Assembly: GCF_037893015.1 (NCBI RefSeq)
Contig: NC_133660.1
Coordinates: 285,049,078 to 285,113,077, forward strand
Length of the DNA: 64,000 bases
From: Macrotis lagotis
Taxonomy: Eukaryota; Chordata; Mammalia; Peramelemorphia; Peramelidae
Reading direction: 5' to 3'
This document shows, one piece after another, positions 11,926 to 64,000 of the stretch; position 1 is the first letter of the stretch, and every line of letters begins with the position of its first letter. A program made the translations under genes and the position numbers. Below the pieces are notes generated by a model. That model saw only the letters and a list, made by a program, of their open reading frames with translations. It did not search any database and was not told where the DNA came from.

Positions 11926-12000
11926 CAATAACAGCCAAGGAGGTGCCATCTGGTGCCTGAGGTGCCTGAGGATTCTGACTTGCAGAGGGCAGAAATGCAG
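11926..12000 (+). CDS. PLAAT3: PLAAT3-like gene, first coding exon (copy A)
   Basis: Acceptor-like TTTCTCTTAG before 11926 and donor GTAGGTAA at 12001. It ends AGAAATGCAG, which supplies only Met-Gln before the phase-0 junction with exon 2. The ATG (11995) has G at -3. Copy C has the same exon (49124-49189) with the same ATG and donor, which supports this start over the 10657 ATG. Confidence 0.7.
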
Positions 12001-15000: not shown

Positions 15001-18000
15001 CCACTTGGATGGATTTCAAATTTGTTTTTGGGAGACAGTGAGATCATCTCACACCTGGTCCTTTTGTGATACTTTCACAGTCAGGGGATTGGAGGGGATC
15101 CCTGAGTCTACCTCTGGGTGGGATTACTTAAAATGACTTCCTGGGGTAATATGTCTTTTCCTTTTCTCTCCTTCCTTCCTTCCTTCCTTCCTTCCTTCCT
15201 TCCTTCCTTCCTTCCTTCCTTCCTTCCTTCCTTCCTTCCTTCCTTCCTTCCTTCCTTCCTTCCTTCCTCCCTTCCTCCCTTCCCCCCTTCCTCTCTCCCT
15301 CCCTCTCTCCTCCCCCTCCTTTTTTTTTCTTTCATTGCTTCTTTTTTCTTTCTTTCCAAAAGGTGAATATTTTGGGGCTGGTGCCTCCAGCATCATGTCA
15401 GCCCTGACAGATAGAGCCATAGTAAAGAAGGAGCTGCTCTGTAAGGTGGCTGGGAATGACAAGTACCGGGTGAATAACAAACATGATGACAAGTACCCTC
15501 CACTGCCACCCAGCAAGATTGTCCGGAGGGCTTTGGAGGAAGTGGGGAAGGAGGTTCTCTACAGCCTGACCAGTGAGAACTGTGAACACTTTGTGAATGA
15601 ACTGAGATATGGAATCCCTCGAAGTGACCAGGTTTGTCCATCCCACCCCCCACACCCTAGTGAAGGTCTCCAAGCTGGGGGAAGGGGCATGAGCACCGTG
15701 TCTAGGAGGTGAAGGCTTGTCTGCCTCCTCCTGCTCATGGACCTTCTTCCTACAAGGTCTGTTTTCCTATCTGAGGACACCCTCCCTGCTTCCCCCCATA
15801 TGAAAGGCTGATTGTAAAACTGTACATTTCTTTGACCTATGCAAGTGAACGGAAACCACAACTTGCTGAATGCCAGATATTGTGTTAACAGAAAGGCAAA
15901 AAAAAGCTCATATTTTTCACTTTTGATACAAGTAATTTGGTTTTCTACTTTCTTTTTCAATCAAATTAATGAAAGGTTTGTCTATTTTATTGGTTTTTTC
16001 ATAAAACTAACTCTTGTTTCTATTTATTACTTCAATAGTTTTCTTGCTTTCAGTTTTATTAATTTCTCCTTTACATTTTAGAATTTCTAATTTGATATTT
16101 AATTGTAGTTTTTAAATTTATTTTTTCTTTAATGTTTTTAGTTGCATGCTTAATTCATTGATTTCCTTTCTCTATTTTATTCATGTAAGCATTTAGAGGT
16201 ATTATATATCTCCTAATAACTTCTTTGGCTGTATCCCCTAAGTTTCGGTATGTTGTCTTGTTATTGTCATTATCTAGGATGAAATCATTAATCCTGTCCA
16301 TAATTTATTGTTTGATCCAACCATTCTTTTTTTTTTTTAATTTTGTTGGTTAAGGCAATGGGGTTACGGTGACTTGCCCAAGGTCACACACACACAGCTA
16401 GGTAATTGTTAAGTGTCTGAAGCCGGATTTGAACTCAGGTCCTCCTGAATCCAGGGCTGATGCTCTCTCCACTGCATTACCTAGTTGCCCTGATCCACTC
16501 ATTCTTTAAAATGAGGTTATTTGGTTTCCAATTAGTTTTAGGTCTATTTCTCCATGGCCTGTTATTGCAGGTGATTTTTATTGCCTCATGTCTGAAAAGG
16601 AAGTATTTCCTATTTCTGCCTTTCACATTTGATTATGAGGTTTTATGCTCTGGTTTTTGTGTAAGTGCCAAGTATTGTAGAAAAAGGGGTAAATTTCTTT
16701 CTTTCCTCATTCAATTTTCTTCAAAGGTCTATCAAATCTAGGCTTTCTATTTATCTCCTTAACTTCCATCTTATTTATTATATGGTTAGATTTATCTAAT
16801 TCTGAGAGAGGGAAGGTCTCCCACCAGTAGAGTTTTGTTATGTATGTTTTCCTGTAACTCATTCAGTTTTTCCTCTAAAAATTTGGATGCTACACTGCTT
16901 GGTGCATGCATATTTGTATTGAAATTACCTTATTGTCTATGGTACCATTTAGGAGGATATAGTTTCCCTCCTTATCTCTTTTAATTAGATCTATTTCTGC
17001 AGCTGCTTTGTTTGAGATAAGGATTGCTACCCCTGCCTTTTTCACTTCAGCTGAAGCATATTTTGCTCCAACCTTTTACCTTTTCTCTGTATGTATCACT
17101 CTGCTTCAAGTCAGTTTCTTGTAAGCATCATATTGTAGATTCAGGTTTTAATCTACTCTGTTATTTGTTTATGTTTTATGGGGGGAGTTCATCCCATTCA
17201 CATTCAAAGTTATAATTACTAACTTTATTGCCCTCTAAAGTATCTCCCCATCATTTGTATTTTTCCCTTATTTCCCCCTTAGCCCTATTCCCAAGTAGTT
17301 TGCTTTGGAATACCACTTCTTCAGTGTGTTTTCCCCCTTCTATCCAACTCCCTTCCCCTTTCTTTCCCTTTTCCCTTTACCCCTTCTTCCTTTCCTTTCT
17401 TCTGTTAATTCCTCTTTTCCTCCCCCCCTTCCCCTTTCACCTCTTAATACTTGAAAGTTAAAATAAGTTTCTAATCTCCACTGAAACATACTCATATGGA
17501 AATACTTAGCCTACTTCCACATGTATAATTGATATCATCTTAATGCACTTTAGGGTTTGAGTGGTGCATGAATGCACAAGAAAGACTCAGGACTCAAGAT
17601 GCAAAGTTATAAGGGTCATATAAGTTTTATTATGCAATTGCAAGATTATTGCATGCATCCTTATTGCATCCTTAGGGGATAAGCAGCTAGCTGGTAAAAA
17701 GACTGATGCTTATTTAAGAAAACAGGGTATGGTGTGCAGGCTGGGAAAGGGATGGAGAATGGGGCAGGCATGGTTTAAAGGATCATGTCAGAATGCCCAA
17801 GGATAATGAGCTCATTTTTGGGTAACAGTCTGTTATCTTGTTGGTTTCTAGCTTCTACCTCCCAGTCTTTGTAGGCCCCTCTTGGCGGTAGGTCGGGTGT
17901 TTTGTTGAGCTGAAAGACACAGGGTACCCAAGATAGTTATTAGCAACTAAAGGTCTGCTGGAAGGAGAACTGTTCTCAGAGACTGTAGCAAGCTTTTTCC

Positions 18001-18783
18001 CAGGGATGTTGTAATATCATTTTTGTATAATCAACTTTCTCAGGTTACACAAGATCAGTATAGAAAGGCTGAATCTAACCACTTGTTCTCTGCTTAGGAT
18101 TTCCATAGCATCAATATTACTTACTTTCTTGATTGGTGAGGGAGGGAGAAAATTTAAAACTCCCATTTTTTTTTAAAGAATGCTAATAAATAAAGAAAAT
18201 TTTGAATATATTTAAAAATAGCTTTCTATTTTCTATTTTCATGGGATGCCCTGTCTGTGAAGATCATCCTATCTAGATTGTCCCAGGAAACCCCTACTTA
18301 CCTTTGAGAGTCTGGTAGACCCTCATGTTTCACTTGTCCATCATCCCTGCTTCTTGCCTGAAGGGGTTGGTTGAGAAGCCTGGGAGGGGGAGGGGAGGTC
18401 GACAGAAATGGGTGAGTTTTAGCGTCATGGTAGGTAGTTACAAGGTTAAAATGGAAAGATTCCTACATCCCCGCAGTCCCTGTTTTGTTTGGTTTATCCA
18501 TTTACTGACCATCCCCCACTGCCCTCTTTGTATTTGCCTGAAAGGTCCCTGTGTTATGTCCTTGGAAGTACTGATTCTTTACTTTCACCAAGAGCTAAAT
18601 CTAAGTTTGCCAGGGCAAAGCATATGGTTGGAATGGAGGGCATCAGGTTTCTCTAATGACCCCAATGTTCCTCTCTGTTCACAGGTCAGAGATGTCCTTG
18701 TGGGAGCTGGGATAGTTGGTGGTTTGGCTGCTGTGGGTATCATTGGTATGATGCTTTCAAGAAACAGACGGCAAAAGCAATGA
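11995..18783 (+). CDS. PLAAT3: PLAAT3-like phospholipase A/acyltransferase, complete gene (copy A)
   Basis: Join 11995-12000, 14767-14869, 15363-15631 and 18685-18783; 158 residues. The family hydrolyses acyl chains of phospholipids and transfers them (N-acylation of phosphatidylethanolamine); PLAAT3 acts on intracellular membranes through a C-terminal anchor. Seen here: the N-terminal [11 protein letters not shown] motif; catalytic His20 (CHWAVYVG) and His32 (VVHLAPP); VNNKHDDKY; Cys110 in [14 protein letters not shown]; a hydrophobic tail (about residues 131-150) ending SRNRRQKQ. The His-His-Cys spacing of 12 and 78 residues matches His23/His35/Cys113 of human PLAAT3 (162 residues), and the MSALTD and RQKQ wording fits PLAAT3 best. 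All splice sites are GT-AG and no frame is broken. A poly(A) signal follows at 18854. It is the only intact member of the array here. Assignment to PLAAT3 rather than PLAAT2 rests on recognition, not on a tree. Confidence 0.92.
12570..12625. repeat. old MIR-type fragment
   Basis: CCCCTCCCCATTACAG ... GGGTCACACAGCTTA; the same fragment lies in copy C near 51870-51930. Confidence 0.5.
13118..13273 (-). mobile_element. MIR-core SINE, antisense, inside the L1
   Basis: TTTTGCAGGGAAATGGGG ... GCCACCTAGCTGCCCC. Not present in the homologous L1 of copy C. Confidence 0.9.
13661..13935 (+). mobile_element. long-class SINE
   Basis: Head GGGTAGCTGGGTGGTGCAG, core TTAGCTGTGTGACCTTGGG, 3' domain GTGGACCCAGATGG and GATGTCATGGTCTTCTTTG. 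Confidence 0.88.
14767..14869 (+). CDS. PLAAT3: PLAAT3-like exon 2 (copy A)
   Basis: 103 nt, phase 0 in and phase 1 out. Acceptor GTGGTTTTATAG, donor GTAAGG. Encodes [13 protein letters not shown] and both catalytic histidines (codons for HWAVY and VVHLAPP). Reading past the donor stays open for 22 further codons (see findings). Confidence 0.95.
15170..15345. repeat. (TTCC)n polypyrimidine microsatellite
   Basis: About 100 bp of perfect TTCC units decaying into CT-rich sequence, ending just before the exon 3 acceptor. Absent before exons 3a and 3b of copy C. Confidence 0.97.
15363..15631 (+). CDS. PLAAT3: PLAAT3-like exon 3 (copy A)
   Basis: 269 nt; completes the split Gly codon, then 89 codons from EYFGAGASS to RSDQ. 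Contains [14 protein letters not shown] and the nucleophile Cys (TGT at 15581-15583) in [12 protein letters not shown]. Acceptor CCAAAAG, donor CAG|GTTTGT (a weak but standard GT). Confidence 0.95.
15955..17460 (-). mobile_element. L1 ORF2 fragment, antisense, in intron 3
   Basis: Minus-strand similarity to the L1 endonuclease/RT region (for example GATAAGGATTGCTACCCCTG and GCTTCAAGTCAGTTTCTTG), split by a SINE at 16325-16490. It is missing from the corresponding intron of copy C, so it entered copy A later. Confidence 0.65.
16325..16490 (-). mobile_element. MIR-core SINE, antisense
   Basis: AAGGCAATGGGGTTACGGTG ... TTACCTAGTTGCCC, inserted in the L1. Confidence 0.88.
17560..18115 (-). other. 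unassigned interspersed repeat, possibly an LTR fragment
   Basis: About 550 bp absent from the matching intron of copy C, with a reversed AATAAAA near 17630. I could not define TG...CA ends or a target duplication, so the LTR label is only a suggestion. Confidence 0.25.
18685..18783 (+). CDS. PLAAT3: PLAAT3-like terminal coding exon (copy A)
   Basis: Acceptor CTGTTCACAG. Encodes 32 residues beginning VRDVLVGAG, a glycine-rich hydrophobic anchor and the basic end SRNRRQKQ, then TGA. This matches the tail of human PLAAT3 in length and wording. Confidence 0.95.
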   Translation, partial: VRDVLVGAGIVGGLAAVGIIGMMLSRNRRQKQ

Positions 18784-25870: not shown

Positions 25871-27138
25871 TTCTATTAAAGATTTTATTTATTTTGAGTT
25901 TTACAATTTTCCCCCCATCTCACTTCTCTTCCCCACCCCCCACAGAAAGTAATCTGTCAGTCTTTACATTGTTTCCATGTTGTACATTGATCCAAATTGA
26001 GTGTGATGAGAGAGAAATCATATCCTTAAGGAAGAAACATCAAGTACAAGAGATAACAAGCTCAGAGAATAAGCTAGCAGTTTTTTCCCTAATTAAAGGT
26101 AATAGTCCTTGAACTTTGATTAAACTCTGTTGTGTCATATGTATTCCAGGCTAAGAGCTATGAAGGGTTAACACAGAAATAGTTATGCGCTTTAACCAGC
26201 AAGATGTACTTCAGAGCTTAGATAAGGGAGTAGCTGCATGTCTGAGCTAACAAGGTGTATTCCCAGGCTCAGATAGATAGCTCATTCTGAGATAATTACC
26301 TTCTGCATTCTGTTTATCAAAACACTGTTTGGTTCACAAAACAATCACCTAAGACATACACAAGGATATGCATGTGAAAAAAATGCTTGCTAAAACGCTT
26401 ATGTAATTGGTTACGTAAATGTAGAGTATAAAAGTATGTATCCTGTGATCAATAAACAAACCAGCTTATGCATCATATTGATGTTGGCCTGAGTTCCCTC
26501 CTCTGGACTCGACAAAACTCCATGGTTCTTTATCTGGATACAGATGGCATTCTCCATTGCAGACAGCCCTAAATTGTCCCTGATTGTTGCACTTATGAAA
26601 TGAGTGAGTCCATCAAGGTTGATCATCACCCCCATGTTGCTGTTAGGATGTACAGTGTTTTTCTGGTTCTGCTCATCTCGTTTAGCATCAGTTCATGCAA
26701 ATCCCTCCAGGCTTCCCTGAGTTCCCATCCCTTGTGGTTTCTAATAGAACAATAGTGTTCTATGACATACATAGACCACAGTTTGCTAAGCCATTCCCCA
26801 ACTGAAGGACATTCAAAGAATTTCCAATTCTTTGCCACCACAAACAGAGTTGCTATGAATTTTTTGTACAAGTAATGTTTTTTACCCTTTTCCATCATCC
26901 CTTCAGGATATAGATGCAGTAGTGGTATTTCTGGATCAAAGGGGATGCACATTTTTGTTGCCCTTTGGGCGTAGCTCCAAATTGCTCTCCAGAAAGGTTG
27001 GATGAGTTCACAGCTCCACTAACAGTGTAATAGTGTCCCAGATTTCCCATAACCCTTCCAACAATGATCATTATCCTTTCTGGTCATATGGGCCAGTCTG
27101 AGAGGTATGAGGTGGTACCTCACAGAAGCTTAAATTTT
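25871..27138 (-). mobile_element. 5'-truncated L1, antisense, with target duplication
   Basis: L1 3' end inserted in reverse, flanked by AAAAGCATTTTTT at 25858-25870 and 27139-27151. Minus-strand translation at 26626-26952 gives [23 protein letters not shown] and [11 protein letters not shown], the C-terminal end of L1 ORF2. It carries a solo LTR at 26128-26514. Confidence 0.88.
26128..26514 (+). mobile_element. solo LTR (387 bp)
   Basis: Starts TGTTGTGTCA and ends CTCGACA; flanked by a perfect 6-bp duplication AAACTC (26122-26127, 26515-26520), with TATAAAAG near 26428 and AATAAA near 26451. The 6-bp duplication and layout fit a class II (ERV2/ERVK-like) LTR. It sits inside an L1 and looks structurally whole as a solo LTR, so it is one of the younger insertions here. 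Confidence 0.9.
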
Positions 27139-48688: not shown

Positions 48689-49123
48689 GTCCCTGGTTAC
48701 TTCAGGAGATGGTTATGGGAGAGGGCACCTAGGGCTTCTCTCTGTCCCACCCAATGGTGTCCAACTCTCTCCCCCCTTATGTCCAATCCTAGCCTGGGAA
48801 CCAACCTTGTCAAGGCTTTCCAGAGAATAGAATGGGGATGTCAGCAGGTTCCTTTTGGGCCAGGCAGCTACCTGCCATCCAAGCTCCTCTCTTTTCAGGG
48901 CTTCATCCAGGTTCAATCAAGGATTAAGGATCACTCTGCCTCCTGCCAATTGGGACCAGGAAAGAGAAAGAAGAAGAGGGAGCCTTGAGGCTCTCCAGTA
49001 GAGAGCAGCAGAGTCCAGCTGTCAGCTCCCCTATCCTCAGTGGCTGCACAGTGCCCATTTACCACCACTGCTTCCTGTTCTTAGTTCCTACCAAACTAGA
49101 ATTTCTGGTCATTTCTGTCTTAG

Positions 49124-49189
49124 GAAGAATTGCCAAGGCAGTGCCATCTAGACCCTGAGGATTCTGACCTGCAGAGGGCAGAGATGCAA
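49124..49189 (+). CDS. PLAAT copy C, first coding exon
   Basis: Acceptor TTTCTGTCTTAG, donor GTAGGT at 49190. Ends GAGATGCAA, giving Met-Gln as in copy A. It is the only start exon found upstream of the two exon 2/3 pairs. Confidence 0.6.
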
Positions 49190-52100
49190 GTAGGTACTTT
49201 TAAGATATTTGTAAAGAAAGTACAGTAAGGATTTGTGCTTAGCAGTTTTAGATTGGGGACTTGAGGGGAGAGGGGCTCAGGGTTTGAGGACAAGACTCTC
49301 TCCAGGGTCCTCTGGCCCCGTTTGGGAGTGAGACTTCAGCAGACACTCACAGGTGGCTTCCCGACAAGACAAAGAATTGGCCCATTATTCAGAAGAAGTA
49401 TCAGGAATTCATTTGTGGGGTGATTTGGATGACAATGAGGGTTTAGAAACTGGCTAAAAGCAGTGTTAGCAGAGAGATAGAACTTTCCTTTCAGAAGAAC
49501 ATAGAATAGGTGTTCAGCTTCCTGAGATTTCTGGGATTCAGAGCACAACTGATTAGAGAGACAGAGGAACCTCAGAACAAATGTCCCAGATACTATTTTG
49601 AAACTCAACCAGAAGTCCAGATCCTTTCAGGTTTCAGTTTTGCTTTTCCTGAGGACTAAAAGAGAGTTTGTAACTTAAACATAGAAAAAAACTTTCATTT
49701 TAGGGAATACAAGACAGGATATGAGAATTGGCAGATGTGGTTGAAACTTCAAACAGTGCTAGAATTAGGGGTGTCTTAGAGCATGGGATGTCTGAGCTGG
49801 GGTTTCTTGGAGTATGGGATATCATAGATGGAGGGGATCTTAGTCCAGGAGACTGTCAGAATTGTGGCTTCTTGGAGTAAAAGGAATCAGAGGTGGTGGG
49901 TCTTGGAGCACAGGAGGTCAGAGGAGGAGGGCATCTTACCGAATTTCTATTAAGGCCATTGGTCTTTGCTGCTGTAAAGAAGGAAGGGAGGGACACATAG
50001 ATGGATGGAAAGATGGAAGGAAGGAGGAAGAGAGGAAGAGAGATGTGTTTTCGCATCTCTTTTTCCAATTCTTCTGATTTGTGAAGGCACGATCCTACAG
50101 AGCTCTCAAGAGTATGACAGAAAAGATACTAGATCCAGTCATTGAGGAGTTGCAAAATGGTCAGTTCCTTCAGAGGCAAAATGTAGGACAGTGATGACTG
50201 GGGCTGGGGAGCATTCTGCAAGAGTCTTCTGCAGTTAAGTTTTCTCTGCAGCCAGAGAAGGGGAGTGGCTGGGGTGCTGCAGAGGACCTCATCAAAAAAG
50301 TGGAGTGGACTTGACTCCCTGCCTAAAGATTTCAGGATACATCATCCTGTCTTTTGACTTAAGATTGTTTGCCCCTGATAAGGAAATTTGTGGGAAGGGA
50401 TGAAAATTTTGGCTACTGTTAGTTATAATATCTCACTAAGAATTAGTCTCTTTCTGTTGTAGGTTAGTTTATATCCTATATGAGTTATTGATAGTCGAGG
50501 ACAGGCTTTTGGATTGAGGGAGGCAAAGAAAGATGTCAGTTGAGGGCTTGAGTCATTTTCTGCTTGTCAGGGATTGGACAAGCACTTCATCAGGTCTCAA
50601 AATAGAGTGGAAGGTTAAAGACAAACCTCGTCTCCTCTTCCAAGTTTTGCTTGATAGTGCAGGTCCTAACCTGAAGTTTCTTACTCCATGCTCATTGTTG
50701 AGGGCCTTGCAGGCCTGTGCTTGCATTACCAGGGCAGTAGGGGAAAAGTGATACCCCAGATATCTCTAGAGACAAAATAGGGAAGGAGGAGGACAGCACA
50801 AAAGCCAGGCATAATGAGGGAAACATTGTTCCTGCCTCTGTCTCCCTGCTTTAGTATGGATGAGGTTCTGTAGCATTTCATGGTGCCATCTCTAAAGAAT
50901 TCAGGTTCAGATTGTATGCAAATCAAACAAGAGGCATTTGATTTTCTTTTGTGGATCATGCTCCCAGCAGATTCTGCTCCCTAGGGGAGGCAGGATATTG
51001 AATTGGATGAAACTAGGGGCTTAAATCAGGCAAAAGGTGCTGACAAACTCTGAGGACCTCGTCCTAGCCAAGTTCACCCAGTCACAGAGGCAAAGTGGAA
51101 CTGTGCATGCGGCTACCCATAATGCACACAAAAAAGACCAACAAGAGGGGTATGAATGAATGATAATAATATTTTAATTCCCTTGACTTTATCATAAGTT
51201 CACCCAAAGGACAACAAGGTAGTGTGTAGGCGCCACCTAGACAAAGTCCTTTTTCTGAGTTATGGGCCAGCATCCTGCTCCATAGCCTCTTGGTGCTGCT
51301 TTTTTGGTGATTGGCTTCTAGATTAGTCTAAAGAGGATGGTGTGGCCAGGTGGTGTGCTTAGATCATGGTGTGCTCTGCTCTTCTGGTGAGAACCTGTAA
51401 GAAAGTTAGGATATTGGGGCTGGCGCATCAGCTAAGTTTCCAGCATTTCCCCCTTAAAGACCTGGGATCCAAATTTGTTTGGGAGAAAGGATGAAGGCTT
51501 GGCTTCTGTAGCAGTTTCAGGCTGAGGGGGGCATAGAAATGTCCCTGCCTCAATGGGTCCCTCCTTTGGGAGGGAGGTGATTTGAATTGAGCCAAGTTGG
51601 ACACATGCCCTGATAGAAGAATGGGAAATTCCTTTTGTTCAGTTTTGTACCTTTAGAAGGACAATGATATGCCCCTGGAATAGGGAGAGGACAAAGAAGA
51701 ATATGGAAGAATATTGAAGAAATGCTGGGTAAATGAAGATACTGAAGAAATGGGGATGCTCAGGCAGGAGAAAACACTTAAGGGGCCAGGATGCCACTAT
51801 CTTCAGGTCATTACACAGCTGCCCCACAAGAAAGATCAAGAGCTAGAAAGGACCTCAAAGCTGTTGAGCTCAGTCCCTCCCCATTACAGACAGGCTAACC
51901 TCAAATTTTGCCAGAATCACACAGCTAGGAAAAAACAGACAAGATTGCAAATTGGCCAAATTGTCATGGCTGGATCCCCAAGACCTTGACTTTCAGTCAA
52001 CCTTCCCACATCCCCCTTAATATGTAAATTCTTTTATAAAATTTTTAATAGTTTCACCCCTCTTCAGCCCTCCATTTTGCTGTGGTTCAGGGAATTGAAT

Positions 52101-54622
52101 TCAGGGTCACACAAAGGTAGGAAGCAGTTGAGACAGAATTTGAATCCAGATCTACTAGTTTCAAAGTCTAGCCATTTTTCCATTTACCCATGGTAGCCTT
52201 CAAAATATTTAAAGACTGCTATTTTATGTCTCCTCCTCCTTTTCTTCTTCTCTGTATTTTAACTGCAACACCTGTCAGATGGTGAGAACCCTGTTCTATC
52301 TTAAATGCCTTTGACCAATACTTTTGAAATGTATTGAATAGAATTCATTTAAAGTTGTTTCTTCTGTAGTTTTCATTGTATAAATTTTTATCCTGCTTCC
52401 CAATTCCCTCTAAACTTTCCTATTTTCATTTTAATTTTAAAAATCTTTATTATTGGGGGCAGCTAGGTAGTGCAGTAGATAGATCATGGTTCCTGGAATC
52501 AGGAGGAGATGAGTTCAAATCCAGTCCCAGACACTTGATACTTACTAGCTGTATGACCTCGGGAAAGTCACTTAAGCCTATTGCCTCATTTATTTTAAAC
52601 ATTAATTTCTTTTTAAATGATAGGTTTCAGGTCCTCTTCTTCCCATTGCTCCCCTAGGCAAAAATAATGCTATCAATTATACACGTGAGGGCAACTAGGT
52701 AGCACAGTGGATAGAGCACAGCCCTGGAGTCGGTAGGACCTGAGTTCAAATCCAGCCCAGACACTTAATAATTACCTACAATATGACCTTGGGCAAGTCA
52801 CTTAACCCCATTGCCTTGAAAAACAAAAATAATTACACATGTGAAGTTATACAAAATATGTCCATATCAACCATATTGCAAAAAAGTAAAAAAATAAAGG
52901 GAAAAAATTATACTTTGATTTGCACTCAGAATTCATCAATCCTCTCTGTGGAGATGGACAGCACTTTTTCATCAAGAGTTGTTTGGAATTGTCTTGATCA
53001 ATCTATTGATCAAAGTAACTAAGTCATTTGATCATCATTACAACATTGCTGTTACTAACACAATGATTTCCTTGTTCTTCTCACTTCATCTTGTTCAGAG
53101 TTCTTGCCAATTTCTTTTCTGAAACAACCTGCCTCATCATTTCTTCTGTCACAATACTCCATAACAATTGTATACCACAACTTGTTCAGTTATTCCTCAA
53201 TTGTAGAGCATCCCCTCAATTTCCAATTCTTTGCTATCACGAAAAGAGCTGTTATATTTTTGTACTTGTGGGTCTTTTTCCTTGTTCTTTGATTTCTTTG
53301 AGGTAGGGATCTAGGGGTGAAAATGTATCAAAGAGTATGCACAATTTTATAGCCTTTGGGCATAGTTACAGATTGTTTTTCAGAATGGTTGGGTCATTTC
53401 CCTACTCTTCCAACAGAACCTATTTGTATACAAATACCTATTTCCCTCCTCCAACATTTGTCATTTCTGATAAGTGTGAGGTGGTACCTCAGAGTTTAAT
53501 ATGCATTTTTAGGTTTTTTCAAGGCAAATGGGGTTAAGTGGCTTGCCCAAGGCCACACAGCTAGGTAATTATCAAGTGTCTGAGACCGGATTTGAACCCA
53601 GGTACTCCTGACTCCAGGGCTGGTGCTTTATCCACTATGTCACCTAGCAGCCCCAATATGCATTTATTGAATCAATTGTAATTTAGAACAGTTTTTCATA
53701 TGAGTATAGATAGCTTTGATTCTTCTTAAAAATGCCTATACATATCTATTAATCATTTATCAGTTGGGGAATGACTTTTTTTAAACAACTTTGACTCAGT
53801 CCCCCATATGTTTAGGAAATGAGACTTTCATCAGAGAAACTGGCTGTGAAAATTTTTGATATTACTTCATTATCTACACAATCTTTTATCAAAACATAGT
53901 TTCTCTGATTACTTCTTTTAATTAGATCTGGTTTTGCTTTTGCTCCCTTATGAGGTCATGATTTCTACTTCTGCCTTTTTTACTTTAGTTGAAGCATAAT
54001 AAAATCTGCTCCAGCCCTTCATTTTAACTCTGTATGTGTCTTCTGGTTCCATTTTATGGGTTAGTTCATTTCATTCATAATCACAACTGTTTTCATCAAT
54101 TTTATTTTCTTGTTTATCCTCTCTCTCTCTCTCTCTCTCTTTTATCCAGCTCTCAAAAATCTGTTAAGTTTCTAACCACTGCCTCTCTTAATCTACCCTT
54201 CCTTTGATCATGTCTTCCCTTACCCCCATTTATTCTACTCTCTCTCTCTCTCTCTCTCTCTTGTTCCTCCTCAAAAGTGTTGTGCATCTGACTAGCCCCT
54301 CTCAAAATATTCCCTCCTTTCTATCACCTTCCCCTCCTTTCTTCCATCCCTTTACTTCCTACTTTCCTCAAGGATAATATAGAGTTCTATTCCCATTCTA
54401 CACCAAATATGTTATTCCCTCTCTCAACCAGTTCCAATGAAGATTACGCTTATTCCCACCCCCATCCCCGTACCACTGCAAAAGTTTTTTCTTGTCCTTT
54501 TAATATGAAATAACTTAGCCCATTCTACTTTCCCCTTTTCTTTTCTCAGTTCATTCCTCTCTTACCAATTAATTCCATATTTTAAAATATATTATCCCTT
54601 CAATTCCAATCCCCCCGTGCCT

Positions 54623-54686
<64 letters not shown>

Positions 54687-54731
54687 AGGATATATATATG
54701 TATATATACACATATATATATATATAGACAA

Positions 54732-54781
<50 letters not shown>

Positions 54782-57700
54782 TCCTTCTAACTGCCCTAAT
54801 AAATGAGAGTTATCTGTATCATCTTCCCATGCAGGAATATAAGAAATTCAACATCATATGTTCCTTATGGTTTGCCTTTCTTGTTTACCTTTTTATGTTT
54901 CACTTGAGTCTTGAAATCTTTGAAGCTCAAATTTTCTATTCAACTCTGGTCAGTTTGAGAACTTAAAAACTCCATATTTCATTGAATGTTTATCTTGTCC
55001 CCTGAAAGAGTATGTTCAGTTTTGCTGGGTAGTTGATTCTTGGTTGTAATACAAACTCTTTTGCCTTCTGGAATATCACATTCCAAACTCTGTGATATCT
55101 TAATGTAGAAGCTGCTAAATCTTGTGTTATTCTGACTGTGGTTCCACAGTAATTGAATTGTTTCCTTCTGGCTGTTTGCAATATTTTCTCCTTGACCTAG
55201 TAGCTCTGAAAATTGGCTATAATATTCCTGGAAGTTTTCATTTTGGGATTTCTTTCAGGAAGGGATCAGTGGATTCTTTCGATTTCTATTTTATCCTCTG
55301 CTTATTCTCTAGCAGGGCAGTTTTCCTTGATAATTTCCAGAAAAATAATGTCTAGGTTCCTTTTTAAGTCCTGGCTTTCAGGTACTCCAATAATTTTTAA
55401 ATTATGTCTCCTGAATCTGTTTTCCAGGTTTGTTGTTTTTCACTGAGATATTTCACATTTTCTTCTAGTTTTTCATTCTTTTTATTTTATTTTTTTTGCT
55501 TGTTTCTTGATTTCTCACAGTCATTAGCTTCCCATTGCTGCTTTTTATATTTTAAGGAATTATTTTCTTCAGTAACTTTTAAAATTTCCTCTTCCATTTG
55601 ACCAATTCTGCTTTTTAAGGCATTCTTCTACTCATTGGCTTTTCAGATTTTGTTTTTCCATTTGGCCCAGTCTTCTTTTTTAAGATGTTATTTTCTTTAA
55701 TATATTTTGGTGATCCCTTCACCAAGCTGCTGACTCAGTTTTCATAATTTTCCCACATCACTCTCATTTCTCTTTACAATTTTTTCTCTACCTCCCATAC
55801 TTGACTTTCAAAAATTCTTTTTGAGCTCTTCCATGACCTGAGACCAATTTATATTTTTCTTGGCAGCTTTGGATGTAGGAGCTTTGATTTTATTATTGTC
55901 TTCTAAGTATGTGTTTTGATCTTCCTTATGACCATAAAAACTTTCCATAGTCATCCTTTTTTTCCTTCTTTTGTTTCCTCACTTCTCAGGCTATAGCATG
56001 ATTTTAACTCTTTCCTGCTTTGAGAGTGGAGAGCATACTGTCCCAAGATTTTGGGGTTTTTGCAGCTGTTTTCAGAGCTCATTCTGGGGGTGGGGGTCTT
56101 CAAGGCTTTGGTGCTTCCAAGTGGTGTGATTCTTTTAGTTTTTTTTTTTTTGCTTTTTTTGCAAGGCAATGGGGTTAAGTGGCTTGCCCAAGGCCACACA
56201 GCTAAGTAATTATTAAGTGTCCGAGGCTGGATTTGAACTCAGGTATTCCTGACTCCAGGGCCAGTGCTCTATCCACTGCGTCACCTAGCCACCCCTCAAG
56301 GTGGTGTGATTCTGAGAGAGTTACAGTCACTGCCCTCCTGGTTTGCTTTGGTCTTTATTCAGGAAGGACCCCTGGTCCTTATGTGGCTCGAATTACCAGT
56401 GCTACTCTTGTCCCTGGACTCAGGACCAGTACCTCTGCTCCCTTGCATCCAATTTCTTTCTTTTTTTTTTAAAGAAAGATTTTATTTATTTTGAGTTTTA
56501 CAATTTTTCTCCTATTCTTGTTCCCCCCCCCCAGCCCCCACAGATGGCAGTCTGTTAGTCTTTACATTGTTTCCATGGTATACATTGATCTAAGTTGAAT
56601 GTGATGAGAGAGAAACCATATCCTTAAGGAAGAAAACAAAGTATAAGAAAGGAAGAAAAATAAAGCAAAATTACATAATAAGATAACAGGTTTTTTTTTT
56701 CCCTAAATTGCAGGTAATAGTCTTTGGTGTTTGTTCAAAATGCACCGTTCTTTCTCTGGATATAGATGGTATTTTCCATTGCAGACAGCCCCAAATTTGT
56801 CCCTGATTGTTGCACTGATGGAATGAGCGAGTCCATTAAGGTTGATCATCACCCCCATGTTGTTGTTAGGGTGTACAGTGTTTTTCTGGTTCTGCTCATC
56901 AGTTCATGCAAGTCCTTTCAGGCTTTCCTGTATTCCCATCCCTCCTGGTTTCTAATAGAACAATAGTGTTCCATGACATACCTATACCACAGTTTTCTAA
57001 GCCATTCCCCAACTGAAGGATATTTACTTAATTTCCAATTCTTTGCCACCACAAACAGGGCTGCTATGAATATTTTTGTACAAGGGATGTTTTTACCCAA
57101 TTTTTCATCATCTCTTCAGGGTATAGACCCAGGAATGGTATTGTTGGATCAAAGAGTATGCACATTTTTGTTGCCCTTTGGGCGTAATTCCAAATTTCTC
57201 TCCAGAAATGTTGAATCCTTGCATCCAATTTGAAGTCCTCTTCTCTGTCTTGACATTGCATCCCAGAACTGCTATGAGCAACAGAGTTACAAGTTAGATT
57301 TGGTTTCACCCAGTGCCAGGAAAGGTTCCTCCAAAATCTCTTTCTGAACAATTGTCTGATTCCCTCATACTGTCTCTTCCTGAGAACTCCTAAAAGCTGC
57401 TGCAACCTCTAAGACCTACTGCTGTGCACCTGTCCACCCCACTGTCACAGGCCTCCCCTTCAGACCTCTGATATCGTAGGCTAGGAAAATGGCATCACTA
57501 ATCCTTTGTTGACTCTATTACTACAAAACTTGATTTGAGGCATTATTTTAAAGTTGTTTGGTGGAGAATATCGGGAGAGCTCAGCTGTATCCTGGCCTAT
57601 ACTCAGGCAACTAGGCTGCTAATAAATTATATCCCTTTTAAGTCTTCTCTATGGGGTCATCATCCCTAGTTTCTTCAGAGTATTCTTTTACAGCCTGTTT

Positions 57701-60700
57701 CAAACTTCTTGGAATATGCTCTGTCATCTTTCTCCATTTCCAAATACAGCTTCTAACCTTGGTTTTGTGGTTTTATAGCCAGATCCCAAGCCCGGAGACC
57801 TCATTGAGATTTTCAGAACATGTGACCATCACTGGGCTATTTATGTGGGTGAAGGTTATGTCGTCCATCTGATACCTCCAAGTAAGGAGCACCCCAGTTT
57901 TGTGAGGTTGTATATGTTGCACAAGGACCAGACCCCAGAAGTTAGCTGATTTGATGACTTTTAAGGAGAATCTCTGTTCACAGATGCCAGATTCATGAAT
58001 GGTTGATGAAGCTGCTTGGGTGGATCTCAAATCTGATTTTAGGGGATAGCTAGATCATCCCAAACTGGCCCCTTTAAGACACCATAAGAGCCATGGGACT
58101 GGAGGGGACCACTGGGTCTAACTTTCCACTGCTTAAAAATGACCTCCTTGGGGGTTTCTTTGTTCTTTCTGTTCAAAAGGTGAATATGCTGGGGCTGTTA
58201 CCTCCAATATCAGGGCCATAGTGAAGAAGGAACTGCTTCATGAAGTGGTCAGGAGTGACAAGTATTGGGTGAATAACAAACATGATGACAAGTACAAGGT
58301 GCTGCCACCCAGCGAGATTGTTGAGCGAGCTTTGGAGAAGGAGGGGAAGGCAGTCCTCTATGAAGTGACCAGCAAGGGCTCTGAGTACTTTGTGAATGAT
58401 CTGAGATATGGAATCATTCGCAGTGAACAGGTACGTCCAACCCACCTTCCCTCCATAACTGTATGCAGGCCATGGCTATGGGGGCATGGGGGCATGGGAA
58501 AGGTCCCATGGGGCCCATGTGGTTTTGATGGGGAGAATGGTGCCCAGGAACAATGATTTGTCTGCCTCTCCCTCCCCATGGACCTACTTGCTTCAAGCTC
58601 AGTTTTCCTTCTCCTTGTTGAACACCTCCATAATGGAAAGGCTGACTATAAAGCTCTGGACAAGGAGCAGCTAGGTGGCGCAGTGGATAAGCAACCCTGG
58701 AGTCAGGAGTACCTGGGTTCAAATCTGGTCTCAGACACTTAATAATTATCTAGCTGTGTGGCCTTGGGCAAGCCATTTAACCCCATTTGCCTTGCAAAAA
58801 CCTAAAAAACAAAAAAGAAAAAAGAAAGCTCTGGACATTTCTTTGACTGACACAAGTGAAATCAGTCACCAAACAGTTATTAAGCTCTTGCTGTATCTCA
58901 GCCATTGAGTTAAAGAAAGCTAAAAAAAAGCTCACATCTTAATGGAGGAGACATGTAAATAAATGGAATGGACAAGATATGTTCACAATGGATGAATGGT
59001 CCTTTGAATGGGGAAAGCACCAGTAGCTGGAGCTGGGAAAGGATTCTGGTAGAAGGTGGGGTGCCAACAGTTCCTGGGGTCAAGTTCCTTCCATTTCTTT
59101 AGGAGAGATGGTTCTAGTCTTTATGGGAGCATGTTTCCAATGTCTGTTCTGGCTTCTGTCTAGTCTGAGACTCTTCACCCATCATGACTTGTGAAACATT
59201 GTGAATCATGGTGGCAATTAACAATTTCCCTAATGGTATTTGTTGAAGATATTACCATGAATAGAATACTGTAGGATGAGAACTTCTGTGTGTTTCTCCT
59301 TTTGCAGTATAGGCTCTGCAAAGGCCATTGATTTTCATCAGACCTATTATACTATTCATCACGACACTTTAAAGAATAGCTGCAGAAAACTAAACTAAAA
59401 TTGTTTACTTCATTTTTCTTGTTTCTTTCCCCCCAAACAATGTCAATATGGAAATCCTTTGACTAATTTCACATATAGAACTGATATCTTTTTAAAGGAG
59501 TTCTTTTCTTCAGTTAGTTTTGGTGCCCTTTTTTAAAAATCAAAACAAACTCTCAGCAAACATGACAAATTCTCTTTTCACAATTGTCTTACATCACTTA
59601 TTTTTCCCCCAACTTTTCTTTCTGCCTCATCTTTTTTTTTCCAAACCCTTCCCAGAATTCTTACTGGTCTTAGGTCCAATTAGTAGTCCTCTTTGAGGCT
59701 TTGCTTGTATCTGTTTTCATATTAAGTTCCTGTCTTGATTTTCCCTGCTATCATAGAAGCTTTTCATGATCAAGTTTTTTTTTTTTATTTGCTCATGTTT
59801 CCAGCCTATTTCTTGACTTAGAACTTTCTGTTAAAGTTTGGCCCTGTGACCAATCACAAGCACTCTTCTTTGCCTTGGAATTGTAGCACAGAACTGCTTG
59901 TGGGCAACAGAGCTGCCAATCAGAATGAGTTTTAGCCAGTGCCAACAATGAGTCCCCTATATTCTTTTTCTCATCATTTGTCTGACACCCCCTTGCCCCC
60001 TTGCTGTCTCTTCCTGAGAGCTCTTGAAGCTGCTGTTGCTGCTGCTGTCATAGATGCCTCCAAGGACCTCCCAAGTTGTCTTAGGCTGGAAAAATGGCAC
60101 CCTCAGACCTTTGGTTGACTCTGCTACTCCAAAATTTGATTTGAGATATTTAAAAAAATTGGTTTGGAGGGGAATGTTCAGAGAGTTCAGCTGCAAATTC
60201 CTGGCCTCTATTCTGTCGTCTTTGGTCTCAATATGCCCTATTCATTTTCTGTATTCTCCATAGGTTTAACATCACCATTTCCTTGTGCCCCTTGGCACAT
60301 TCTCTCTCTCATCTTTCTCCATTTGCAAATACAGCTTCTAACCTGTCCTTGGTTTGTGGTTTTACAGTCAGACCCCAAGCCTGGAGACCTGATTGAGATT
60401 TTCAGAACACCCGACCATCACTGGGCCATTTATGTGGGTGAAGGTTATGTTGTCTACCTGTCATCTCCAAGTAAGGAGCACCCTGATATTGTGAGGTTGT
60501 ATATCTTGGACAAGGGTCAGACCCTAGAAGTTAGCTGATTGGAAGATTGTTAAAGAGAGTCTGTTTACAGATACCAGATTCATGTAGGATTGATGAAGAC
60601 ACTTGGGTGGATCTCATGTCTGATTTTGGGGGTGAACTAGATCATCCCTCAACTGACCCCTTTAAGACACTATCAGAGTCATGGATCTGGAGGGGTCCTC

Positions 60701-62826
60701 TGGGTCTAACTTGGAACTGCTTTAAAATAATATCTTTGGGGGTTTGTCTTTTTTCTTCTTTCTTACCAAAAGGTAAATATGATGAGACTGATGTCTCAAC
60801 CCCAACTGTTCCAGTCCTAGTGAAGAAGGAATTACTCCGGGTGGTGGTCGGGATTGACAAGTACCAGGTGAATAACAAACTGGACAACAAATACAAGGTC
60901 CTGCCCGCCAGGGAGATTGTTGAACGTTCTTTGGAGAAGGTGGGGAAGGATGTCCTGTATGAAGGGATAGGAGACAGCTCTGAGCACTTTGTGAATGATC
61001 TGAGATATGGAATCTTTCGCAGTGAACAGGGTCCTCCAACACCTATATCTCTATAAATGTCTGTAGCCTTGGGAGGGCTCAGGGAAGGTCCCATGAGACC
61101 TCCATGGGTTACAATGGGGAGCAGGGTACCCAGGGTTGAAGGCTTGTCTGCCTCCCTCTGCTCGTGGGTCTTGTGGCTTTAAGATCAGTATTCCAACAGA
61201 AAACCCCTCCCTCCTCATTCTAATGGAAAGGCTAACTGGAAAGCTCTGGGCATTTCTTTGACTCTTCCAAGTGAACAAACATTTATTAATCTCTTACTGG
61301 ATGGTAGATATTGTGTTAAAAGAAAGGCAAGAAGTTCATGTTTTGATGGGAGGGGACAATTTGTAAATAAATGATAAGGAGAAGACATGTTCACAGTGGA
61401 TGGATGTCCCTTTGAGTGAAGGCATGAAAAGGCAGAAGGAAGGGCAGCAGCAGCAGTCCCTAGGGTCAAGTTCCCCCTCCCCCCATTTCTTTAGCAGAAA
61501 GAGTTCCAGTCTATGTGAGCATATTTCTTTTTTTTTTATCCATGTGCACATATATAGATTTTCGTTACAAAATTTCCTTTCCCCCTCCCTTCCCACCCCC
61601 TCCCCTCAGTCAAGTTAGCATTGAACATACATATTTTGATAAACAAGTTTATAGATTAGTTATTTTCAGTCTGAGAAATTAGGATTAAGGTGTGAGCATG
61701 TTTCCAATATCTACTCTGGCTTCCATCTAGTCTGTGATTCTTTACCTACCAGAACTGACCTGTGAATCATGGCCAAAGGGTAGAAATTACTGCTTGACCT
61801 AATGTAATTTGTTGGCCCTGGATATAATGTTGGGGGGAGGGGGGAGCTCTCATGTGTGTCCTCTGTGTTGTACAGACCCTGTGAGCCTTCAAGGTCCACT
61901 GATTTCATCAAGCCTAGTACTTATACTATTCATCATGTCAGTTCAAACAAAAAACAGCTCCACAAAATGGAAATAAAAATTTATTATACATGTCTTCTTC
62001 TTTTTTCTTTTTTTGATTTTTGCAAGGTAATGGGGTTAAGTGACTTGTCCAAGATCACACAGCTAAGTAAGTATTAGGTGTCTGAGACTGGATTTGAACT
62101 CAGGTCCTCCTGGTTCGAAGATCAGTGCTTTATCTACTACACCAGCTAGCTCCCCCACATTATTTTTCTTGTGCTTTTCCCCCATGAAACATGGCTGTTA
62201 TGGAAATGTTGTGTTTAATTCCACATGTATAACATGGGGAGAGATGGGAAGGGAGAAAATTAAAAACTCTGAATTTAAAAAAAAAGATGTCAATAAAAAG
62301 TGAAAATTCAGAAAATATTAAAAAAAAATTCCTAGATCTTGGTGGATTGCCCACTGGTTCTCAAGATCATCTTATCCAGATCTCCCTAGGAAGCCCCTTC
62401 TCGCACTTGTGAATACAGCCTCCCCTCAATTTCACATGCCCATCACCCCTGCTCCTTGCCTTTAGGGGTTGGTTGAGAAGTTTGGGAGGGGAAGGAAGGT
62501 CATAAGAAATGGGTGAAAACTGATAAGGATTTCTATGCTGTCACAGCCACTGTTCTGTTTGGTTTATCTCCAAGCAGATGTTTTGCTCTTCCCTCTCTTC
62601 ATCATGTCCTGGAATTGATTCTTTACTCTCACCAAGAATTAAATCCATATGTGCCAGAGACAGTCATCTAGCTGGAGTGAAAGAGAGGAGTGGGCTGCAC
62701 TATTGATCACAGCCTTCCTCTCAGTTCTCAGGTCACAGATGTCTTCACGACAGTCACAAACTGTTTGGGATAAGTGACATTTTGGCTGCTGCCAGCTTTG
62801 TTGGCAGAATGTTTTCAAGAAACTGA
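49184..62826 (+). CDS. PLAAT copy C: predicted two-domain PLAAT-like pseudoenzyme
   Basis: Join 49184-49189, 57779-57881, 58180-58430, 60368-60470, 60773-61030 and 62732-62826; 271 residues if all are used. Domain 1 (residues 1-120) has [11 protein letters not shown], His20 (HHWAIYVG), His32 (VVHLIPP) and VNNKHDDKY, but Ser104 where the catalytic Cys should be (KGSEYFV). Domain 2 (121-240) has [11 protein letters not shown] and HHWAIYVG, but Tyr for the second His (VVYLSSP) and Ser for Cys (DSSEHFV). The tail (241-271) ends [16 protein letters not shown]. Exons 2 and 3 join in phase 0, so the second pair follows the first without a frame change. Exon 3b uses a GT one base later than its paralogues; this puts exon 4 in the frame of the conserved tail. 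Cys-to-Ser at this site is known to inactivate PLAAT3, so phospholipase activity is unlikely. Alternatives: two neighbouring broken genes, or a pseudogene. The exon family is certain; the single transcript is inferred. Confidence 0.55.
52457..52596 (+). mobile_element. SINE, diverged MIR-core type
   Basis: GGGGCAGCTAGGTAGTGCAG ... CTAGCTGTATGACCTCGGG; tail eroded. Confidence 0.85.
52687..52830 (+). mobile_element. MIR-core SINE
   Basis: GGGCAACTAGGTAGCACAGTG ... ATTGCCTTGAAAAAC; TACACATGTGA / TACACGTGAGG-like flanks. Confidence 0.88.
52850..53500 (-). mobile_element. L1 ORF2 3' part, antisense
   Basis: Reverse complement of the ORF2 C-terminal region (TCCATAACAATTGTATACC, CAATTTCCAATTCTTTGC). 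Confidence 0.6.
53505..53655 (-). mobile_element. MIR-core SINE, antisense
   Basis: TTTTCAAGGCAAATGGGG ... GTCACCTAGCAGCCCC, with AATATGCATTT on both sides as target duplication. Confidence 0.94.
54118..54260. repeat. two (TC)n microsatellites
   Basis: CT runs at 54118-54140 and 54238-54260. Confidence 0.9.
54624..54779. repeat. (TA)n microsatellite
   Basis: Long TA array broken by two AGACAAGGATA units. Palindromic and probably unstable. Confidence 0.97.
56136..56297 (-). mobile_element. MIR-core SINE, antisense
   Basis: TTTGCAAGGCAATGGGGTTA ... GTCACCTAGCCACCCC; (A)AGTGGTGTGATTCT / AAGGTGGTGTGATTCTG repeats at both ends. Confidence 0.94.
56456..57216 (-). mobile_element. 5'-truncated L1, antisense, nested
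   Basis: Flanked by a perfect 15-bp duplication CCTTGCATCCAATTT (56441-56455, 57217-57231). Same 3' region as 25871-27138; minus-strand peptide [16 protein letters not shown]. The homologous site in copy A (near 14205) is empty. Confidence 0.93.
57232..57615 (-). mobile_element. L1 5' UTR end, antisense, before exon 2a
   Basis: Continuation of the long L1. Aligns with 14230-14615 of copy A and 59880-60215 before exon 2b. Confidence 0.75.
57779..57881 (+). CDS. PLAAT copy C exon 2a
   Basis: 103 nt; acceptor GGTTTTATAG, donor GTAAGG. Encodes [27 protein letters not shown] and LIPP; both catalytic histidines present. Confidence 0.9.
58180..58430 (+). CDS. PLAAT copy C exon 3a
   Basis: 251 nt, from [11 protein letters not shown] to IIRSEQ; acceptor TTCAAAAG, donor GTACGT. 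Against copy A it has an 18-nt in-frame deletion removing MSALTD, and Ser (TCT, 58380-58382) at the nucleophile position. The frame is fully open and both splice sites are good. Confidence 0.9.
58432..59850. other. intron between exons 3a and 2b, no exon 4
   Basis: Holds a SINE, an old repeat at about 58855-59060 and L1-3'-like sequence at about 59330-59490. I looked for a terminal exon resembling VRDVLVGAG or SRNRRQKQ and found none on the + strand. Confidence 0.6.
58666..58822 (+). mobile_element. MIR-core SINE
   Basis: GGAGCAGCTAGGTGGCGCAG ... TTTGCCTTGCAAAAACC; AAGCTCTGGACA on both sides is the target duplication. Absent from unit 2 (about 61240). Confidence 0.94.
59850..60215 (-). mobile_element. 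L1 5' UTR end, antisense, before exon 2b
   Basis: Third copy of the shared L1 edge (TGTCTGACACCCCC, AATTTGATTTGAGATATT). Confidence 0.7.
60368..60470 (+). CDS. PLAAT copy C exon 2b
   Basis: 103 nt, phase 0 at its start; acceptor GTGGTTTTACAG, donor GTAAGG. Encodes [13 protein letters not shown] and [14 protein letters not shown]; the second catalytic His is Tyr. Confidence 0.88.
60773..61030 (+). CDS. PLAAT copy C exon 3b
   Basis: From [10 protein letters not shown] to IFRSEQ. Acceptor CCAAAAG. Its start is rewritten and four residues shorter than copy A. Ser (TCT, 60979-60981) replaces Cys. The exon end reads CAGG|GTCCTC instead of CAG|GT, so the nearest donor is one base later and weak. 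Without splicing it runs on to GPPTPISL and a stop at about 61054. Confidence 0.8.
62003..62155 (-). mobile_element. MIR-core SINE, antisense
   Basis: TTTTTGCAAGGTAATGGGG ... CACCAGCTAGCTCCCC; splits the L1-like sequence of unit 2. Confidence 0.9.
62165..62330 (+). mobile_element. L1 3' end, sense
   Basis: ACATGGCTGTTATGGAAATG, CCACATGTATAACATGGGG, A-rich end; paralogous pieces near 39330 and 59440. Confidence 0.5.
62732..62826 (+). CDS. PLAAT copy C terminal exon, altered
   Basis: Acceptor CAGTTCTCAG. Entered in the usual phase 0 (as from exon 3a) it stops after 13 codons at 62771. Entered one base later (as from the slipped donor of exon 3b) it reads on to [16 protein letters not shown] and TGA at 62824, keeping the hydrophobic tail but losing the final RRQKQ. 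Confidence 0.65.
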
Positions 62827-62835
62827 TAGCAATGT

Positions 62836-63040
62836 TTTTTCAGTGAGGGGTTGTGGGACAGGTAGAAGGGAAGGAATCTGGATATCAAAGTTTAAAAAAA
62901 TGAGTGTTAAAATTGTTTTTCCATGTTGACTGGGGAAAAATAAGATACTAAATCAAAGAAAATTTTTATCAAAAAAGTAAAAAATCTTTCTTTACAAAGA
63001 AAAAAAATAAATAAAACTGATAACAAAATTAATAAAGCAG
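62836..63040 (+). mobile_element. L1 3' end inserted between stop codon and poly(A) signal
   Basis: AGTGAGGGGTTGTGGGACAG ... TTGACTGGGGAAAAATAAGA and an A-rich tail. Copy A has no such insert at the equivalent point (18783), so the copy C 3' UTR is about 200 bp longer. Confidence 0.7.
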
Positions 63041-63105
63041 CCATCCAAGTCATGGTAGCTTGGCTGCACCATAAGGCTCATGCACAATGTGTCCTCACTG
63101 CTTGT

Positions 63106-63111
63106 AATAAA
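63106..63111 (+). terminator. poly(A) signal of copy C
   Basis: AATAAA in the sequence equivalent to 18854-18859 of copy A. Confidence 0.7.
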
Positions 63112-64000
63112 GATGGTTCTATTATCAAAAGAAGATCCACTGGGGAAAGACCCAGGATGAGTTATTCCATGTTCTTCCTCATAGTTTAGTCTGAAAACTG
63201 AATTATTTTCCATAAATCTTTCCTGGTTCTATGGTGACCCAGTCTCTCCTTAACTATACTTAGAGGAAAAGAAAACCAGTACCCAGATCATCCCTCATAC
63301 TCTTTAATGAAAAGGACCCTCAGTGATTCTATCCTCTAGTCCCAATGCCTCATCTGAGAAAAGAGGGGACAGAGAGGGAGTAACTTCCAAAGTAACAAAA
63401 TAGGAAAGGCTCAGAACTGGTTTCATTTGGCATCCTCTTGTAGTAAATCCAGGACCCTTTTCACACAATGGCTGGATGCTTCTTGGTGTGTTAGGAGATT
63501 GGTGTGTGATGGAATTACTACATTTCTTCCCCTGAAGACTAGAATTCCCTGCTTCCCACAGAAATTTCTAAAATATTCCAACCCCCACAAACAAAGTCAC
63601 TATATCCAAATGCTCATTTTAGGAAATAATCTGTGAATATACAAATAACTAATAAGTCTGACTTGATAGAATTATGGTGACAGGGTGGGATGGGGGAAAA
63701 GGAAGGAAGATAATGTCAACTGTTCTGTTTTTCAGTTTCATAAATGGGAGCTTGAGACAAGACCCTTTTAGGTGGTGGGGGTCTGGCATTTCTCTATCTA
63801 CATTCATTGGCCATGGCCAGGGTAACATCTATCCATAGACTTCCTATGGCTAGCCACTGCAAATGGATGGAGTGAAGATGCATCCTGAGCACTGCTGTGG
63901 GTGGTGTGTTAATCTCGCTACACCTGACCAGAACTCCTTCAACTCTCCTGTGGTTTTAGGACTTTAGGTGCAGAGTGACTTCAGTACAGCCTCACTTAAC
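63112..64000 (+). repeat. 3' flank of copy C, matches copy A 3' flank
   Basis: Aligns with 18890-19720. The duplicated block therefore includes the whole gene and at least 850 bp beyond it, and continues past the window. Confidence 0.75.

Follow-up and report, generated by a model that had tools for sequence, protein, structure and literature searches.

A tandem PLAAT3-type gene of the bilby with serine at the nucleophile position of both predicted domains

Can a single gene of the greater bilby, Macrotis lagotis, encode two PLAAT domains in one protein, and would that protein still be an enzyme? The question arises in a window of 64,000 nucleotides (contig NC_133660.1, positions 285,049,078 to 285,113,077 of the forward strand). 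A PLAAT-type gene occupies 49184-61056 of its plus strand, with the exon order 1-2a-3a-2b-3b; its exons, the tandem units, the terminal-exon relic and the signal at 63106 all lie on this strand.

Exon order and the deposited model

The internal exons are 2a (57779..57881, 103 nt), 3a (58180..58430, 251 nt), 2b (60368..60470, 103 nt) and 3b, which up to its usual boundary covers 60773-61029 (257 nt). AG acceptors precede all four, and GT donors follow exons 1, 2a, 3a (a strong site, CAG/gtacgt) and 2b; of the eight splice sites flanking the internal exons, seven are intact. Joining these exons confirmed that they are open in a single frame, with 3a ending and 2b starting in phase 0, as the first-pass annotation had stated. 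Both pairs (103 + 251 and 103 + 257 nt) show the PLAAT pattern of phase 0 at the start of exon 2 and at the end of exon 3, and the exons at 14767-15631 of an intact PLAAT3-like gene in the window have the same layout. That gene, P0068 (11926-18780, also given as 14767-18780), is single-domain, retains the His-His-Cys triad and has the same kind of start and terminal exon.

Exon 1 (49124..49189, donor gtaggt) encodes MQ (ATG CAA, 49184-49189). It had been proposed as the start exon, and its ATG at 49184 does lie in an open frame. The frame is, however, open upstream to an AG at 49122-49123. Because this AG directly precedes 49124, and because the bilby paralogue P0006 has residues ahead of the matching peptide, the exon is probably internal and not the first of the gene. 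A search of the window for an upstream exon resembling the P0006 N-terminus gave no match with fewer than 7 mismatches in 13, and Rfam gave nothing at gathering score within the window.

A protein search with the 271-residue translation of the first-pass annotation returned P0001, a 248-residue NCBI entry from Macrotis lagotis ('phospholipase A and acyltransferase 1-like'), at 100% identity over 89% of the query. P0001 corresponds to this gene, being identical in residues from MQPDPKPG through the end of domain B. Its chain takes in 2a, 3a, 2b and 3b, the last of them read through to a stop at 61056. Being derived from the genome of the same species, the model gives no independent proof that the gene is expressed and could be purely a prediction. 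The earlier proposal of one protein with two domains in series thus keeps its core, an open 2a-3a-2b-3b chain that NCBI also draws; the ending proposed with it is unlikely.

The LRAT domain (PF04970) matches the joined protein in two stretches (E = 1.2e-52), a PLAAT3 profile detects both domains and PLAAT3 chains in the PDB match at E about 1e-44. Trees place domains A and B both among marsupial PLAAT3-type sequences. Together with the exon phases, these matches argue for membership of the PLAAT (HRASLS) family by descent. Secondary Pfam matches (Calici_PP_N, NLPC_P60, SH3_CYT4) were set aside, since no stretch passes alone; we take them as parts of the same fold. AlphaFold predicts two separate folded domains (mean pLDDT 84.8, residues 243-248 below 50), whose mutual placement is unsure because pTM is 0.60. 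The best PDB matches are crystal structures of PLAAT3 and PLAAT2, with TM scores of 0.91-0.93 by target length.

Tandem duplication and loss of the 3′ end

The two exon pairs stem from a unit of about 2.6 kb (roughly 57225-59850), repeated head to tail, which runs from the last part of intron 1 through exons 2 and 3, with intron 2 between them, into the first part of intron 3. Copy 1 lies at 57225..59420 and copy 2 at 59850..62000, both with approximate outer edges. Intron 2 is 82-83% identical between the copies and about 70% identical to that of the intact PLAAT3-like gene; at its 296 three-way sites, 59 single out the intact gene, 24 copy A and 23 copy B. Identity between A and B is 86% in exon 2, 79% in exon 3, 71% in the intron 1 flank and 56% in the intron 3 flank. 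That no start or terminal exon separates the pairs follows from the position of the break points, which fall in introns 1 and 3. The first-pass annotation had reported none there, and our searches agree: exon-4-like matches (E < 0.19, 56000-64000) occur only at 62743-62823, and the exon-1 peptide of P0006 matches (E <= 1e-3) only at 11935 and 49124. One AATAAA/ATTAAA signal lies between the pairs, at 58958 (after 3a).

Several further elements were noted around the units. The stretch 56800-57216, 86% identical to 26577-27003, is repeat-like, presumably L1, and ends about ten bases before copy 1. The element at 58662-58827, about 160 bases long and matched 31 more times in the window, resembles a SINE. 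Within intron 3 of each copy, 59059-59178 and 61692-61769 resemble the C-terminal end of bilby P0062, each with an in-frame stop, and probably represent an alternative last exon.

The 3′ end of the gene has changed. The normal donor of exon 3b at 61030 is gone, its usual position reading GG and not GT. A GT one base beyond the boundary scores −1.3 bits, against 10.1 bits for the 3a donor, and 58% of GT sites in the window score equal or higher (by an approximate matrix). The terminal exon survives as a relic (62732..62826) homologous to about 18685-18780 of the intact gene. Two pieces align, 62604-62743 with 18556-18696 and 62766-62832 with 18708-18774; because they are separated by 22 nt here and by 11 nt in the intact exon, the 11 extra nucleotides put the two halves in different frames. 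The shifted donor and the frameshift compensate one another only in the second half of the exon. The proposed 271-residue product is therefore unlikely, given the lost 3b donor, its poor replacement and the frame-shifted terminal exon.

Read-through of 3b (60773..61056, TAA at 61054-61056), as in the NCBI model, requires neither the shifted donor nor the damaged exon, and it gives P0001 the C-terminus GPPTPISL in place of residues from the proposed terminal exon. AATAAA/ATTAAA signals downstream of 3b include 61366 and 61972; a further AATAAA at 63106..63111 falls within 63038-63991, a segment sharing 69% identity with the sequence that flanks the intact PLAAT3-like gene on its 3′ side. With the 3b donor lost, the protein most likely terminates eight residues past domain B, and would thus be without the C-terminal hydrophobic anchor. 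This anchor is missing from the 248-residue model, and the relic exon is frame-shifted.

Catalytic residues and constraint

The triad reads His, His, Ser in domain A and His, Tyr, Ser in domain B. The first His (HWAIYVG) is present in both. The second (VVHL) is retained in A, so that exon 2a carries both catalytic His positions, and is replaced by Tyr in exon 2b. The nucleophile Cys (NCEHFV) is Ser in exons 3a and 3b, with the codon TCT both times; A and B likewise differ in the preceding residue, which is Asn in P0007. By comparison, 100 of the 102 listed homologues with a single domain match are His-His-Cys; one has only the Cys aligned and one is His-Asn-Cys. Ser also occupies this position in domain 1 of the two-domain bilby protein P0006. 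As the three Ser domains form one clade (support 99/98), a single loss of Cys before the duplication is the simplest history. Within protein trees, domain B pairs with P0006 domain 1 and not with A (93; 88/62); grouping A with B is not rejected (p-AU 0.32). The loss of Cys in both domains had been overlooked in the first-pass annotation, and it changes the meaning of the locus, which at best encodes an inactive PLAAT relative in tandem form and otherwise is a gene being lost.

A human PLAAT3 in which Ser replaces Cys113 has been described as lipase-dead, and PLAAT4 with a truncated transmembrane segment as no longer deforming organelles though the enzyme is still active (PMC9338259). Mouse PLAAT3(C113S) is described as an inactive probe that accumulates on ruptured mitochondria (PMC12017856). 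An inactive PLAAT can therefore still find a target. That probe is presumably full length, whereas the bilby protein is probably without the tail.

Selection was assessed with a codon model whose branches were A, B and, as the third, the intact PLAAT3-like gene. It gave omega values of 0.41, 0.47 and 0.68, respectively, and a single omega of 0.54 for all branches fits nearly equally (lnL −962.329 vs −962.004). Fixing A and B both at omega 1, as against one shared value, costs 3.37 log units (2 × (965.384 − 962.017) = 6.7). Fixing B alone costs 2.05 (2 × delta lnL 4.1) and A alone 0.54 (1.1); tested singly, the copies depart from omega 1 only weakly. Under neutral simulation the chance that neither copy acquires a stop is 0.114 at 0.10 substitutions per site per branch and 0.168 at 0.08. 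Indels between A and B number one in 354 aligned exon sites (6 bases, none frame-breaking), three in 296 sites of intron 2 (all frame-breaking) and nine in 499 of the intron 1 flank. The intron 2 rate predicts 3.6 exon indels and, by simple arithmetic, a probability of about 0.03 that none breaks the frame.

Divergence between the copies is nevertheless higher in exon 3 (21%) than in intron 2 (17%). Private changes in B amount to 29 of 244 sites in exon 3 and 23 of 296 in intron 2; the corresponding counts in A are 13 and 24. Exon 3b (60773-61029) has thus evolved faster than its own intron 2, and exon 3a slower than its own. Conversion from another paralogue or relaxed constraint may account for this difference. 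The combined signal points to weak constraint, perhaps ended recently.

Readings of the locus and its relatives

We favour, at close to even confidence, a catalytically dead tandem paralogue of the PLAAT3 family, without the membrane tail, which is under weak constraint while its 3′ end erodes. On the simplest reading an ancestor would have swapped the nucleophile Cys for Ser (TCT) once, and the block of about 2.6 kb with exons 2 and 3 would then have been duplicated in tandem. The DNA itself shows the repeated unit and both Ser codons; we infer the order of events. Given phase 0 at the start of exon 2 and at the end of exon 3, splicing in exon order would yield one protein with two LRAT domains, in agreement with the deposited model. 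Lacking Cys, it would be expected neither to cleave nor to transfer acyl groups, and any role would be through binding, the protein being a soluble pair of inactive PLAAT domains. The frame would have been kept open by weak constraint, with erosion now under way at the 3′ end. Against this reading, plain decay would also account for the loss of the 3b donor, the frameshift in the terminal exon and the His-to-Tyr change of B, and the possible poly(A) signal at 58958 would permit an end after 3a. Nearly as likely, and a serious contender at about one chance in three, is a gene in decay: the paralogue would have lost its nucleophile before the tandem copy arose, and the open exons would be left over from earlier coding use, the 3′ end being broken and no functional protein made today. 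Such decay would explain the missing Cys of both domains and the missing second His of B, the destroyed donor and shifted terminal exon, and an exon 3 that is no slower than intron 2 (in B, faster). It sits less well with four exons free of stops and frame-breaking indels since the duplication, with a joint omega of A and B below 1 and with splice sites intact at seven of eight positions.

Single-domain products, made either from alternative exon pairs (1-2a-3a-4 or 1-2b-3b) or from transcripts that stop after 3a, we regard as quite unlikely. The phases permit them, 1-2a-3a-4 giving a single-domain protein of 133 residues, and the AATAAA/ATTAAA signal at 58958 could serve the shorter transcript; the sequence, however, gives no sign of mutually exclusive pairs, the sites of 2a, 3a and 2b are intact and the deposited model joins both pairs. 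That Ser is a working nucleophile in an active serine-type PLAAT seems very improbable: domain A keeps both His and three related domains share the Ser, yet the same change is described as making PLAAT3 lipase-dead (PMC9338259), the residue before Ser is changed in A and B, and B has no second His. Returning to the inactive tandem paralogue, we mention as a rather doubtful extension that the Cys-to-Ser domains, doubled in a soluble protein, may act as a non-enzymatic partner or brake of the neighbouring active PLAAT3, for instance by engaging the membrane or the proteins that PLAAT3 would otherwise bind. If expressed, the protein would be a natural, doubled counterpart of the laboratory C113S lipase-dead mutant, and would illustrate a route to multi-domain PLAATs through duplication of exons 2 and 3. 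It may matter more that, in many predicted multi-domain PLAATs, Cys is retained in only part of the domains, a pattern suggesting that inactive copies have repeatedly been put to use or repeatedly lost.

The arrangement had been thought unknown in the family, a novelty that was overstated, as two domains are already known from predicted proteins. Our census of 186 homologues combined the best 120 of 966 and the best 120 of 668 matches; 84 of the 186 have two or more matches to the PLAAT3 profile, a count favoured by the fact that both queries were themselves two-domain. Predicted two- or three-domain PLAAT/LRAT proteins are listed in marsupials, bats, shrews, squamates, birds, fish and skates, and some could be gene-prediction fusions. 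Two of the 84 have Cys replaced in both of their domains, by Ser in P0060 and by Tyr in P0139; in koala P0026 none of the domains aligns a Cys. No further marsupial Ser form was recognised by name and identity among the best 120 of 1166 matches of a further search, which scored just the candidates with most words in common and also missed P0006, presumably for its length; this absence is weak. More than 30 plaat3 duplicates are reported in Sorex araneus by a preprint that describes the history of mammalian duplicates as unexplored (PMC10760033). Judged by titles and abstract openings, we found no publication on this bilby gene or on two-domain PLAATs; the phrase 'two LRAT domains', where it appears there, refers to two protomers of one dimer.

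A close relative in architecture is P0006 (NCBI LOC141518862 isoform X2, Macrotis lagotis, 313 aa), which shares with this gene two PLAAT domains, Ser in domain 1 and a similar exon-1 peptide. It differs in that its domain 2 keeps His-His-Cys and a C-terminal tail, and joining its two domains in a tree is rejected (p-AU 0.0155, with long branches). The marsupial LOC100013657 / LOC122731702 family (opossum, monito del monte, Antechinus, koala; bilby P0041) is similarly multi-domain, with two or three PLAAT-type domains per predicted protein; three-domain models exist in opossum, monito del monte, Antechinus and koala. Unlike the bilby gene, this family forms a separate tree branch and its last domain is His-His-Cys, P0004, P0019, P0023, P0037 and P0041 keeping Cys only there. 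An open exon at 2441-2692 of the window is 75-78% identical to domain 1 of the three-domain P0004/P0037, and no other exon closely matching that gene was seen in the window. Squamate models P0011, P0014, P0020, P0024 and P0047 also carry two domains in series, but nine of their ten domains are His-His-Cys, and P0011 and P0014, the two of the five included in the tree, form their own branch. PLAAT3 (human 7zom and 4dot; bilby P0068) has the same exon 2/3 phases, fold and H-box as the bilby two-domain gene, from which it differs in its single domain, its retained Cys and its hydrophobic C-terminal tail.
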